Assembly (NCBI GenBank): GCA_947365485.1 | Contig: CANAXK010000029.1 | Location: 1 to 11,975, forward strand | Origin: an uncultured bacterium | GTDB taxonomy: Bacteria; Cyanobacteriota; Vampirovibrionia; Gastranaerophilales; Gastranaerophilaceae | DNA length: 11,975 nucleotides | Direction of reading: 5' to 3' | Shown here: positions 4,489 through 11,975 of the stretch, in pieces | Layout: each line of letters opens with the position of its first letter | Numbering within the stretch: position 1 is the stretch's first letter | The notes under the pieces: model-generated | Databases searched by the model: none | Seen by the model: the letters and a program-made list of their open reading frames with translations, nothing else | Told to the model about the DNA's origin: nothing | Made by a program: the position numbers and the translations under genes

Positions 4489-5712
4489 TTATCCGAATAT
4501 TTTTTGCGCAAGTGCTTTGAGTTTTTCAAAGTCGTAACCTCTGGTGATAGAGCCTTCATAACCAAAATTATTCTTGTTTATATCATACGAGGCCTCATTT
4601 TTTGAATAACTTATTTCTGCACCATCAAAACTTGAACCATCTGGTTTAACATTTGGTGTTGTGTCATGTGAAACAAGTATTTTTTCAATCTCACCATTGC
4701 TACCATATTTTACTTCAATCCATCTTCCATCAGGAAGTTTTGCATTTGCCCAACCTTCGCCTTTTGTAATCTCAGGCTTAGGATTCATGTTAGCGACCTC
4801 TGCAAGCAATTTATTCGCATCATCAAAAGTCTTTTGGACTTTTGGGGCGTTATTATATGCTTTTAGATTAGTAGTATAATCATCTTTAACCTGTCGCTCT
4901 TTTGATGCAATATCTTTAGAAAGCGATTTTATTTCAGATTTCATTGCATTAAAAGACCAACGCTTTGCACTTTTCTCATAGAATTGACTGCGAGTCATTT
5001 TTTGCTCACCTTCTCCAATGCTAAAGTTTGCATCGTCTCCTTTTTCTCCCAGAGGCGTTAAAATGTATTTAATAACATCATCCTGCTTGTATCTAAATTC
5101 GTGTATTTTGTCAATGACATCCGGAAAATATTCTACAACATAGATTACATTATCCTTGTTTATCAATTTCAAGGCATTTTCTAACTGATTAAGATTTTCA
5201 GAAGTTCGTGCTTGGGCGAATGCATTAAACGCATTTTTGATTTTGTCCGCAACTTCTCTGCCTGCTTTTTGATTTTTGATAATAGAATCAACCTCTGCTT
5301 TGTTTGTCGGTTTAGCAGCTTTAGGTACTGTGACTTTGACCGATTCAGCGTCTTTTGCTGTCTGGGCTTCATCTACAGTTGGAGGCGTTTGCTCATCGGG
5401 GTTTGTTTGAGCAGGCGCCGGAGTTTCATTTCCCTCAGCCGGAGCCGGTGCTTCCGCTCCAAGCCATTCTTTTGCAAGGTCGTTTACTGCTTTGTCTGCG
5501 GTTGCTGCGTTTTTTACCGCGTAGGTGGTAATAGAGTTCATTGCTGCAACAACATCAATCGACTCTTTGATTGTTTTTCCGCCTTTGTCTGCGACGAACT
5601 CGTTCCAGATGGACGCGTTGATTTTTCCGTCTTTCTTGCCGTCTGCTGCGTCGAGTTTTTGCGCGATTTTTCCGGCGAGAGTGCCGTTCAATAGTGGGTT
5701 TACTTCTGTCAT
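4489..5712 (-). CDS. Hypothetical protein, 407 aa, with degenerate EF-hand-like N-terminal loop
   Basis: I do not recognise this as a named family. AGGAGA stands about 5 bases before the ATG, supporting the start. There is no signal peptide or membrane segment, so it is probably cytoplasmic unless exported by another route. Visible parts are: a compact N-terminal region with an EF-hand- or dockerin-like loop (DGKKDGKI, 24-31) that lacks the acidic residue at loop position 12, so calcium binding is doubtful; a Pro/Ala/Glu/Thr-rich flexible linker (about 86-115); a helical region (about 137-222); a charged, likely coiled-coil stretch (about 255-310); and a C-terminal part with PDGRWIEVKYGSNGEIEKIL (328-347), recalling short beta-hairpin repeats. 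It is monocistronic, between the MITE-like element upstream and a hairpin downstream. The layout suggests a scaffold or interaction protein, but no function can be assigned. Confidence 0.8.
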   Translation of the reverse strand: MTEVNPLLNGTLAGKIAQKLDAADGKKDGKINASIWNEFVADKGGKTIKESIDVVAAMNSITTYAVKNAATADKAVNDLAKEWLGAEAPAPAEGNETPAPAQTNPDEQTPPTVDEAQTAKDAESVKVTVPKAAKPTNKAEVDSIIKNQKAGREVADKIKNAFNAFAQARTSENLNQLENALKLINKDNVIYVVEYFPDVIDKIHEFRYKQDDVIKYILTPLGEKGDDANFSIGEGEQKMTRSQFYEKSAKRWSFNAMKSEIKSLSKDIASKERQVKDDYTTNLKAYNNAPKVQKTFDDANKLLAEVANMNPKPEITKGEGWANAKLPDGRWIEVKYGSNGEIEKILVSHDTTPNVKPDGSSFDGAEISYSKNEASYDINKNNFGYEGSITRGYDFEKLKALAQKIFG

Positions 5713-10044: not shown

Positions 10045-11487
10045 TTACTTATCAGCCCGCTTCATTATTCTGCGATACGAGCTTTCGCTGATATTTAGTT
10101 TCTGACAAATCTCTTTTACGGTTTTACCGGCAAGTTTCAGGTCTTCAATTTGTTGTTTTGATATATTCGAGATTCTCTCTGAAGACTTTCTGTGGTTTGT
10201 ACTTAGATTATATTTTCTAAGCAGTGCTGTATAGTTTGCATAAGTAATATTGAGTTCATTGCAAATTTCTTTAGTAGACATACCAGAATCAATCATGGTC
10301 TGGATTTTTTCTTTTGGAATAGAAGCTATATCATCAATAGATTTTCTATACAGAGTATTAACCTTAGCGAGCTTTGCCTTTTCATGATAAGTCTCTTGCG
10401 CAATTCCTAATTCTTCTGTTATTTCTTTTACGGTTTTACCATAGGTGGCCAGTTCTTCAAGTTTTTCCTTAGGAATATTAATTTCTCCAATATGGTGAAG
10501 GTAGTCATAATTGATATTCAAACGTTTCAGCAATCTATAAAACATCTGTTTAGTTATGCCCAAATTTTCAGTAAGCTCCGTAGGAGACAATTTTTCATCA
10601 ACCATTCGTTGCAAAGTTACCGCATCGATGCTAGCAATCTTTTGTTTTGAGATATTGCGTTTGGTGATTATCTCAAACTTATTCAACAAACGTGTATATG
10701 TACGGTCATTAATATGCAAAATTTCGCAGATTTCTTTTACAGGTATGCCGCTGTCAACGAGTTCCTGCATTTGTTCTTTAGTTATCGCTGCGATATTTTC
10801 TTTTTGCGCTTTTTGTTCGGTTGTAATTCCAAACTTGGCAATCAAGGAAGAATATACATCTGCAGTAATTTGCAGCTCCTCCAAAATCTCTTTAAACTTT
10901 TTGCCGGATTCCAATAAACCTATAAACCGTTCTTTGGATATTGAATCATGATGAGCAATACTTTCTTTTCTTGGAGTTTGAATATCATATTTCTTCAGCA
11001 AGCCATAATATATCCACTCCTCAATATTAAAATAGCTGCAAATCTCTTTTGTGCTTAGTCCTGAATTTACTTTCGCCAGCAATTGTTCTCTGCTTATAGA
11101 AGCGTTTTTCTCTTTTTTTAATTGCAACTGGCTTTTCAATCCAAAGTTTTCAATCAATTTATAATAAGCATTTTCTTTAATTTTCAGTGTTTTACAAATT
11201 AGTGCGACCGGTAAATTTTGCTCCAACAGTTCTGATAATTTTTCTTTTGTGACATGTGCTGTTTTTCCGGAAGGCTTTTGTTTGTTGTATGGAATATTAC
11301 GCTCGCGCAACAGTTTATAATAAGTATCAACTGCGATACCCAGCTGCGAAGCAATTTCTCTTACACTTTTCCCGCTTTGAATAAGTTCTACAATATGCTC
11401 TGTAGGAATATCTGAAGTTTTGCCCTGAAAGTTAACAGGACTTGATTGTTTTGGGCTTGTTTGGTATGGTTTAAAAATTATTTTCAT
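10045..11487 (-). CDS. Tandem helix-turn-helix repeat protein, nine 52-residue repeats, 480 aa
   Basis: I do not recognise a named family. From the ATG at 11487 the N-terminus is MKIIFKPYQTSPKQSSPVNF followed by QGK; a GTG at 11544 would add 19 residues, but neither start has a clear ribosome site. The rest is nine repeats beginning at about residues 27, 79, 131, 183, 235, 287, 338, 390 and 442: a period of 52, once 51, with the last repeat shortened. The consensus is I-[ST/P]-KEKL-x-EL-x3-GK-x-VKEIC-x2-L-x-I-x4-YY-x-LL-x-K-x2-I, then a basic linker. Each unit looks like a trihelical HTH as in resolvase or Psq-type domains: SGKSVREIASQLGI resembles helix 2 and the turn, and the Tyr-containing segment resembles the recognition helix. 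Residues flanking the Tyr vary most. No catalytic domain, signal peptide or membrane segment is seen. A nucleic-acid-binding array is the natural guess; regulation, chromosome organisation or host interaction all remain open. Confidence 0.85.
   Translation of the reverse strand: MKIIFKPYQTSPKQSSPVNFQGKTSDIPTEHIVELIQSGKSVREIASQLGIAVDTYYKLLRERNIPYNKQKPSGKTAHVTKEKLSELLEQNLPVALICKTLKIKENAYYKLIENFGLKSQLQLKKEKNASISREQLLAKVNSGLSTKEICSYFNIEEWIYYGLLKKYDIQTPRKESIAHHDSISKERFIGLLESGKKFKEILEELQITADVYSSLIAKFGITTEQKAQKENIAAITKEQMQELVDSGIPVKEICEILHINDRTYTRLLNKFEIITKRNISKQKIASIDAVTLQRMVDEKLSPTELTENLGITKQMFYRLLKRLNINYDYLHHIGEINIPKEKLEELATYGKTVKEITEELGIAQETYHEKAKLAKVNTLYRKSIDDIASIPKEKIQTMIDSGMSTKEICNELNITYANYTALLRKYNLSTNHRKSSERISNISKQQIEDLKLAGKTVKEICQKLNISESSYRRIMKRADK
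10048..11409 (-). repeat. Array of nine coding repeats, 156-bp period
   Basis: Repeat units begin at plus coordinates 11409, 11253, 11097, 10941, 10785, 10629, 10476, 10320 and 10164, reading leftward. Spacing is 156 bp, with one interval of 153. DNA-level similarity is limited to short blocks such as tcttttacggttttacc at about 10112 and 10424, so the array is old rather than freshly duplicated, and selection has kept the period. Confidence 0.85.
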
Positions 11488-11554
11488 AGTTATTACATAA
11501 AGACAGTCGGTTTGATGGTTTTTTACAGAAAGCTTAATAAACACTAATTTTATA

Positions 11555-11975
11555 TTAAATTATTTGAAAGCCTATATCTTTTAAACAAATATAATCACCT
11601 GAAAATAATTCTTTAGCTCCCTTTATTCTTTCACCATTAATAAAAACATTATCAGCCAAAGGTTCTATTCTATAACCATTAGTAGTTGATGTCAATGTAG
11701 CAATACTTGTCTTTATTGGGCTTCTATGTTTTATACATCTATAAAGTATACCAACAGTGCTGTTATCATCAAAATATTTAGAAATTAAATTAGTAGTATT
11801 TTTAGGATCTGTTATTTTATATGGAAATACTTCCGGTACAATATTTCGAGAGGTATTGCCTATACTGAACACATTACCATGCATTGCATCAAATAAATAC
11901 GTATCAGTTTGTGTTTTTATCTCATTCCAAGCATGTCCACCGCCATTATAATAACCATGTACCATTCTACATTTT
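11555..11975 (-). CDS. Transglutaminase-like protein with FHA-like C-terminus (N-terminal part outside the window)
   Basis: The frame continues past the window edge upstream of the Met at 11965 (…Lys-Cys-Arg-Met-Val-His-Gly), so that Met is internal and the gene is partial. GGGHAWNEIKTQTDTYLFDA is the His and Asp part of a transglutaminase/papain-like catalytic triad (H at 11 and D at 26 from the visible Met). The catalytic Cys should lie in the missing part. After a linker, residues about 95-136 (GYRIEPL...VFINGERI...LFSGDYICL...FQII) resemble the second half of a forkhead-associated domain: the NG turn and 'L..GD.I' are typical. FHA domains bind phosphothreonine, but its key N-terminal Arg/Ser loop cannot be confirmed. 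Expected to be a cysteine protease or amidase-like enzyme. It lies 67 bases upstream of the HTH repeat gene on the same strand, possibly in one transcript. Confidence 0.6.
   Translation of the reverse strand, partial: KCRMVHGYYNGGGHAWNEIKTQTDTYLFDAMHGNVFSIGNTSRNIVPEVFPYKITDPKNTTNLISKYFDDNSTVGILYRCIKHRSPIKTSIATLTSTTNGYRIEPLADNVFINGERIKGAKELFSGDYICLKDIGFQII

Follow-up and report, generated by a model that had tools for sequence, protein, structure and literature searches.

TAL effectors of Xanthomonas are built of repeats of 33-35 residues of a non-helix-turn-helix (HTH) type, with a few varying residues in each, and carry an N-terminal type III export signal; proteins of the AvrB_AvrC family are type III effectors. 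The DNA-binding domain of Hin and gamma-delta resolvase (HTH_7) is a single HTH unit whose helix 3 we take to be located as in the units described here, and the tandem HTH proteins known to us whose role on DNA has been tested have a few units each. The archaeal proteins Cbp1 and Cbp2 (NF040595; PDB 2lvs) contain tandem HTHs that arose by domain duplication and lie in order along one DNA element (PMC10883916). Selectors of the Tn7 TnsD type (PF15978) have C-terminal regions with multiple HTHs (PMC10293859).

Here we describe a nine-unit HTH array encoded in a stretch of 11,975 nucleotides (the window) from an uncultured bacterium of the Gastranaerophilaceae, and we evaluate whether it reads DNA and where it would do so.

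Results

A gene for nine HTH units

The features of the array gene are listed in Table 1. The list of open reading frames extends the gene to an upstream GTG at 11544; the relatives begin at the ATG. An earlier note on this DNA had proposed nine units with periods of 52, 52, 52, 52, 52, 51, 52 and 52 residues, and this spacing was confirmed by the starts of nine HTH anchor motifs (first residues 49, 101, 153, 205, 257, 309, 360, 412 and 464). The BLOSUM62 self-similarity of the protein was 0.82 at a lag of 52 and 0.97 at a lag of 311, whereas the maximum over all lags in 1000 shuffles was -0.08. The residues flanking the conserved aromatic residue are those that the note had listed, except that the aromatic residue of unit 6 is Phe, not Tyr. 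Among 25 of 66 Pfam families listed, repeated matches were found for HTH_23 (2.3e-29; 100.8 bits, gathering cut-off 24.6), HTH_28 (7.7e-26; 90.3 bits, cut-off 25) and HTH_7 (6.4e-13; 49.1 bits, cut-off 23.8), which places the sequences of the units in the HTH_23/HTH_28/HTH_7 superfamily at unit level.

Table 1. Features of the array gene in the window and of the protein it encodes
Feature	Position	Strand	Remarks
Gene of nine-unit HTH array protein	10045..11487	(-)	480 aa; ATG at 11487
N-terminal tag, residues 1-23, Phe20 in PVNFQGK	11419..11487	(-)	Phe20 identical in all compared pairs, residues 4-19 mostly free
HTH unit 1, residues 25-76	11260..11415	(-)	No linker helix of at least 4 residues predicted after unit 1
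HTH unit 2, residues 77-128	11104..11259	(-)	Anchor motif and AF2 helices
HTH unit 3, residues 129-180	10948..11103	(-)	Anchor motif and AF2 helices
HTH unit 4, residues 181-232	10792..10947	(-)	Anchor motif and AF2 helices
HTH unit 5, residues 233-284	10636..10791	(-)	Starts the core retained by both five-unit relatives
HTH unit 6, residues 285-335	10483..10635	(-)	Followed by a conserved non-helical linker
HTH unit 7, residues 336-387	10327..10482	(-)	Anchor motif and AF2 helices
HTH unit 8, residues 388-439	10171..10326	(-)	Anchor motif and AF2 helices
HTH unit 9, residues 440-480	10048..10170	(-)	Anchor motif and AF2 helices

Two other parts of the window deserve mention. Positions 11555-11965 encode the C-terminal portion of a protein whose GGGHAWNEI stretch looks transglutaminase-like by eye; the gene is cut by the window end, and the protein had no Pfam match at E<=1. 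The frame at 4489-5712 has an N-terminal stretch resembling D-x-K-D-G-K-I, EF-hand-like by eye, in common with L098:4893-5213, the start of L099 and L104:1976-3325, and this stretch is perhaps another signature found lineage-wide.

Predicted structure and structural matches

AF2 predicted the helices H1-H2-H3 in 9/9 units (pLDDT 83.3), consistent with the trihelical HTH that the note had suggested, and the model consists of HTH units and not of a non-HTH solenoid. The regular superhelix of nine units that had also been envisaged was not borne out, the packing being uncertain for the nine units (pTM 0.51) and for a six-unit relative (pLDDT 86.0, pTM 0.43); in these models, single units are well predicted and their mutual packing is not. 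A linker helix was predicted between units 2-3, 3-4, 4-5, 5-6, 7-8 and 8-9, and was absent between units 1-2 and 6-7.

The sequence matches of the family profile in the PDB were mainly DNA-binding HTHs, most of them weak, including response-regulator and transposase domains, and also resolvases, Hin and Sleeping Beauty PAI (E 0.02-0.6). The best match was the CAP repeat 8vd6 (1.8e-13), which is a computer design to judge by the title of PMC12339374, where it is named. The CRISPR repeat-binding protein 2lvs was matched by the profile at E 3.8e-4 and weakly by Foldseek (E 0.36), and the NCBIfam Cbp1 model matched the array protein with 72.5 bits, as would be expected of a Cbp1-like binder of CRISPR repeats. 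However, the model has a cut-off of 140 bits, Cas1 was found in only 2/18 array-bearing genomes and not in the window's own genome (84% complete), and Cbp1 has three HTHs (PMC10883916). A Cbp1-like role thus fails on both the score and the co-occurrence of Cas1, and we consider it extremely improbable.

Relatives keep the units in one order

A search of 5.8 billion proteins returned 40 matches including the window's own protein, 38 of them at E 5e-49 or better; the 2 weak ones were other multi-HTH proteins. Nine unit matches were found in relatives of 474-488 residues with 34-55% identity, and one relative was 93% identical. The family profile matched in 32/65 genomes of the genus. The nine-unit form was present in nine of these 65 genomes at ten places (two in G080), eight units were found in G066 and five in G075 and G084, and the remaining genus matches were more distant arrays. 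Order-wide, 44/383 genomes matched at E<=1e-10, all 44 of them within the window's own family. The dN/dS ratio was 0.11-0.19 in the 5/7 pairs with estimable dS (dS 1.4-2.1 in three), indicating purifying selection with no sign of host-tracking diversification.

We scanned 18 entries with nine profiles, one specific to each unit; the entries comprised 11 shorter relatives (8 distinct proteins, three fetched twice), 6 other arrays and 1 nine-unit control. The shorter relatives, with 7, 6 or 5 units, read 3-9, 4-9 or 5-9 in order, with missing units only at the N terminus, and a tag-like Phe was found near the start in all eight distinct proteins. The unit types that fitted best in the six other arrays were out of order, with margins that were mostly small. 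Left out of the assignment were P0018 (seven unit matches, lacking the C-terminal end), P0024 and L020 (eight units, without the last one) and the untagged relatives P0036, P0038, L048 and L049, all of which may be fragments or broken copies. Nor were the variable residues shared among orthologues irrespective of unit position, and the outcomes that the note had named as refuting its idea did not arise. As to the proposed reader with one short word per repeat, the shorter relatives were never shuffled, so that the array of this family would resemble a fixed sentence, its unit order being locked in the assigned relatives, and not freely shuffled words.

Bacterial-type HTHs, a stable unit order and purifying selection would also fit a fixed genomic target, so that the array could be an intracellular regulator or architectural protein on one or a few long sites of its own chromosome, with an internal role for the tag. 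The setting of the gene agrees with this, since its neighbours in the window are housekeeping genes (recJ-, ctpA- and recR-like by eye, QueF by Pfam), within a genome of 1.63 Mb. However, the distribution is patchy, with the nine-unit form in 9/65 genus genomes, eight units in one more and five in two, unlike that of a nucleoid protein, an alternative of the earlier note that gained nothing here; and no neighbour gene family recurred in more than 5/36 clustered loci. We regard a role on the own chromosome, the main rival of the explanation preferred below, as conceivable but somewhat doubtful.

Other multi-HTH arrays of the lineage have up to twelve unit matches. A second tagged array, with six unit matches, lies in the window's own genome (G000:C35:2210-3115, L079). 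In the longer arrays L051, L052, L053, L054 and L026, the units are followed by a few hundred residues of uncharacterised C-terminal sequence, which is similar by eye in some of them, and an untagged 11-unit array (L059:250-2463/L085) has a weakly Mrr_cat-like end (18.2 bits, cut-off 21). Twelve predicted viral proteins matched at E<=0.001, some of similar length and one annotated as an endonuclease, indicating that long HTH arrays occur elsewhere too. The Mrr_cat-like end, the viral matches and the multiple HTHs of TnsD-like proteins (PMC10293859) would suit a component that directs a defence or mobile system to its DNA target as the site reader for a nuclease or transposase. This is improbable for the nine-unit protein, for which no catalytic domain was present among the 25 of 66 Pfam families listed; no adjoining defence or mobile genes were recognised by eye, and no tblastn match was found in 50,697 phage records.

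Charge and conservation of the putative recognition positions

The residues that the earlier note had named as variable sit in helix 3, and helix 3 together with the linker is net basic. By register position, net charge was basic at 34, 37, 38, 45, 46 and 49 (+0.24 to +0.61) and acidic at 6 and 20 (-0.64 and -0.77); positions 5 and 16 in H1/H2 were basic as well, and the pI was 9.2-9.8 in 35/35 aligned proteins. Similarity between units is lowest at these recognition-helix positions and in the linkers; across orthologues, each unit nevertheless keeps residues of its own there, which is clear in clade A and not in clade B. Within one protein, the likeness between units was 0.14 for the recognition contacts (30, 33, 34 and 37) and 0.20 for other exposed positions. 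Same-unit conservation among clade A orthologues was 0.48 for the contacts compared with 0.32 for other exposed positions, whereas in clade B the contacts were no better kept (0.37 versus 0.41). Between clades, with row P0032 placed in neither, the contacts were slightly better kept (0.31 versus 0.24), best in units 5 and 6 (0.42 and 0.56) and least in units 4 and 9 (0.07 and 0.15). This pattern would fit a site that is conserved within a clade and changes in parts between clades. For position sets of our own choice, the mutual information between residue and unit averaged 1.10 bits for recognition positions and 1.18 for linkers, compared with 0.66 for exposed H1/H2 positions (Mann-Whitney p 7.6e-4 and 7e-5, respectively).

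These results support the array as a modular reader of a DNA site. We infer DNA binding, and helical repeats of other kinds bind RNA or protein, so that a protein- or RNA-binding scaffold has to be weighed; given an HTH-type helix 3, a net basic helix-3/linker side and matches mainly to DNA binders, it is quite unlikely, and binding to DNA is probable. As nine HTH modules stand in one fixed order in the relatives, the array likely reads one long DNA site.

A Phe-centred tag at the N terminus

The new element found in this analysis is a short N-terminal tag, consisting of a variable polar lead and then Phe in F-x-[GAS]-[KRN], which is carried by most multi-HTH arrays of the lineage, by AvrB-family proteins and by orphan proteins. 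Met1 and Phe20 never differed in the pairs compared, whether from clade A (19 rows) or across clades A and B (8 rows). Ile3 agreed in about 60% of pairs; Lys23 was shared by 72% of the pairs from clade A and by 44% of those across clades; residues 4-19 varied widely.

The tag was found in 24/33 multi-HTH proteins, whereas two downstream windows gave 0/33 each. A slightly wider pattern, applied to a second set that overlaps the first, detected it in 20/25 family-like arrays and in 11/13 others, with 0 and 2 in the respective pair of control windows for each; some untagged arrays have uncertain starts. Because the pattern was derived from arrays, these counts are partly circular, and control windows, ordinary proteins and the AvrB family served as checks. 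In ordinary proteins the motif was near background (19/244 versus 12 and 13; 23/331 versus 14 and 12), and a position matrix at threshold 9 gave 18/568 versus 3, 2 and 4 in controls. A tag on about 70-85% of arrays and near background on other lineage proteins speaks against a regulator of the own chromosome.

One tagged protein matched AvrB_AvrC with 43.9 bits (cut-off 23.2) over the C-terminal third of the profile, and AvrB_AvrC matches were found in 43/63 genus genomes, including that of the window. Of the 46 matches, 31 loci were opened and the start was visible in 25; for the remaining six, either a different gene had been taken or the locus end truncated a long frame. By eye, a short lead with F-x-[AVIS]-N was seen at 24/25 starts and F-R-Q-K at one, and a strict regular expression matched 14/31 loci versus 1 and 0 in control windows, these proteins being homologues and counted as one family. 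A Pfam domain over cut-off was present in 2/21 tagged non-HTH proteins (AvrB and HD) versus 9/10 random untagged proteins of 200-660 residues; the 21, which exclude the AvrB member picked as such, were chosen by score and eye, and some are shorter than the untagged set. Because the tag is common to the array and to relatives of known injected proteins, the array may act outside its own cell, which lends circumstantial support to the alternative, raised in the earlier note, of an effector acting on host DNA.

Export systems and the tag

FHIPEP was present in 63/63 genus genomes, with two full-length score classes in most of them among the matches listed. FliP was found twice in 6/7 genus genomes and once in the window's own (incomplete) genome, and YscJ/FliF twice in 7/7 (one a piece in the window's genome). 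In three array-bearing genomes of other genera (G112, G363 and G311), FliP and YscJ/FliF were found once each with scores near the second class, and there were 0 flagellin matches, compared with 7-19 (fragments included) in each of the seven genus genomes. With classes assigned by scores and gene neighbours, the simplest interpretation is that the lineage has a second type-III-like system for export, apparently a non-flagellar one. VirB4-type T4SS was over cut-off in 0/63 genus genomes. According to PMC4040986 (2014), only a subset of flagellar genes is present in 6/9 Gastranaerophilales genomes, and the second export gene set may account for the subset counted there.

Several further observations concern these genes. 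L098, L099 and L118 contain a second set of FliP/FliQ/FliR-, FliF-, FliH- and FlhA-like genes, apparently kept in G112, G363 and G311; sets of this kind had been taken for incomplete flagella in an earlier paper. Some genus flagellin matches lie in frames of 1000-2600 residues. A third, orphan protein that matches only the C-terminal half of FlhA/SctV is encoded at L102:4026-5495 and, in many genomes of the genus, by frames of roughly 500 aa, and a tagged orphan protein of 650 residues lies between flhB- and flhA-like genes (L103:6577-8529).

Outside the family, FHIPEP at cut-off was absent from 35/35 f8 genomes (one weaker match below) and 3/3 f9 genomes, and was present in 15/15 f10-f14 genomes. 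The tag was compared across families in one genome per group and two for the genus, with the matrix at threshold 8. The genus gave 15/304 (controls 4, 2, 3) and G112 gave 3/147 (1, 2, 0), hardly above control. The values were at control level in f8 (4/142; 2, 0, 0), in which FHIPEP is absent, and in f10 (4/141; 0, 3, 3), f14 (1/130; 1, 1, 1) and f13 (0/115; 1, 1, 0). As there was no enrichment in the FHIPEP-bearing groups f10, f13 and f14, the tag does not simply track the export system. On these sequence counts, the window's genus shows the tag clearly, and the comparison across families speaks against a simple coupling of the tag to the export system, a result that also agrees with a regulator of the own chromosome.

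Discussion

The earlier interpretation is partly supported, for the predicted HTH units and their variable helix-3 positions and not for the regular superhelix. In the explanation that we prefer, the nine predicted HTH units of the chain likely bind one after another along a single long DNA site, and the Phe-centred tag likely sends the protein out of the bacterium; since the tag would direct export, the DNA on which the array acts would be that of a host cell or a neighbour. In this view each unit would occupy one groove, the tag would serve as an export signal, and the second gene set would form a working non-flagellar exporter that carries the array protein. For export taken by itself the chances are somewhat below even, and the whole explanation, a tagged DNA-binding array that is likely exported and would act on foreign DNA, is put forward tentatively. 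Against it speak the cross-family tag counts, the dN/dS values, the four untagged relatives, and the lack of an activation domain among the 25 of 66 Pfam families listed. It is preferred to a regulator of the home chromosome at odds that are not much better. We also considered that the Gastranaerophilaceae may export, through their own non-flagellar type-III-like machine, a repertoire of Phe-tagged HTH arrays of about 3 to 12 units, each of which would read a long DNA site in a eukaryotic host or prey cell, beside AvrB-like co-effectors. This would be a second natural answer to the TALE problem, and in this full form it is unlikely. If the array reads DNA, it would be a modular reader on a very common bacterial DNA-binding fold, and if the tag is an export signal, it would allow the effectors of a gut lineage that is still studied mostly through metagenomes to be traced by sequence.

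Among known systems, TAL effectors resemble the array in having tandem repeats with a few varying residues and, if the tag acts as we propose, an N-terminal export signal. By repeat type, the array is not a TAL effector, because a period of 52 residues and an HTH fold replace the non-HTH repeat of 33-35 residues; its unit order is fixed, and no C-terminal domain follows unit 9. Its tag, compared with a TAL-type export signal, is common to AvrB-family proteins but does not track export systems across families. TnsD differs in its TniQ-type core with a zinc finger, whereas the TnsD match of the array lies within the HTH repeats and, at 27.1 bits, is below the cut-off of 32.4, so that a TnsD/TniQ identity was rejected. 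In the CAP repeat 8vd6, five HTH-like stretches aligned with the array, and these follow one another in steps of 33 residues. Hin and gamma-delta resolvase are alike in the fold of the single unit, which they carry once on a recombinase; the array has nine units and no recognised enzyme part. Cbp1 and Cbp2 are similar in their tandem HTH units, but they have three or two units and target CRISPR repeats, and cas1 was not found in 16/18 array-bearing genomes. Compared with the three units of Cbp1, the array family holds nine in a locked order.
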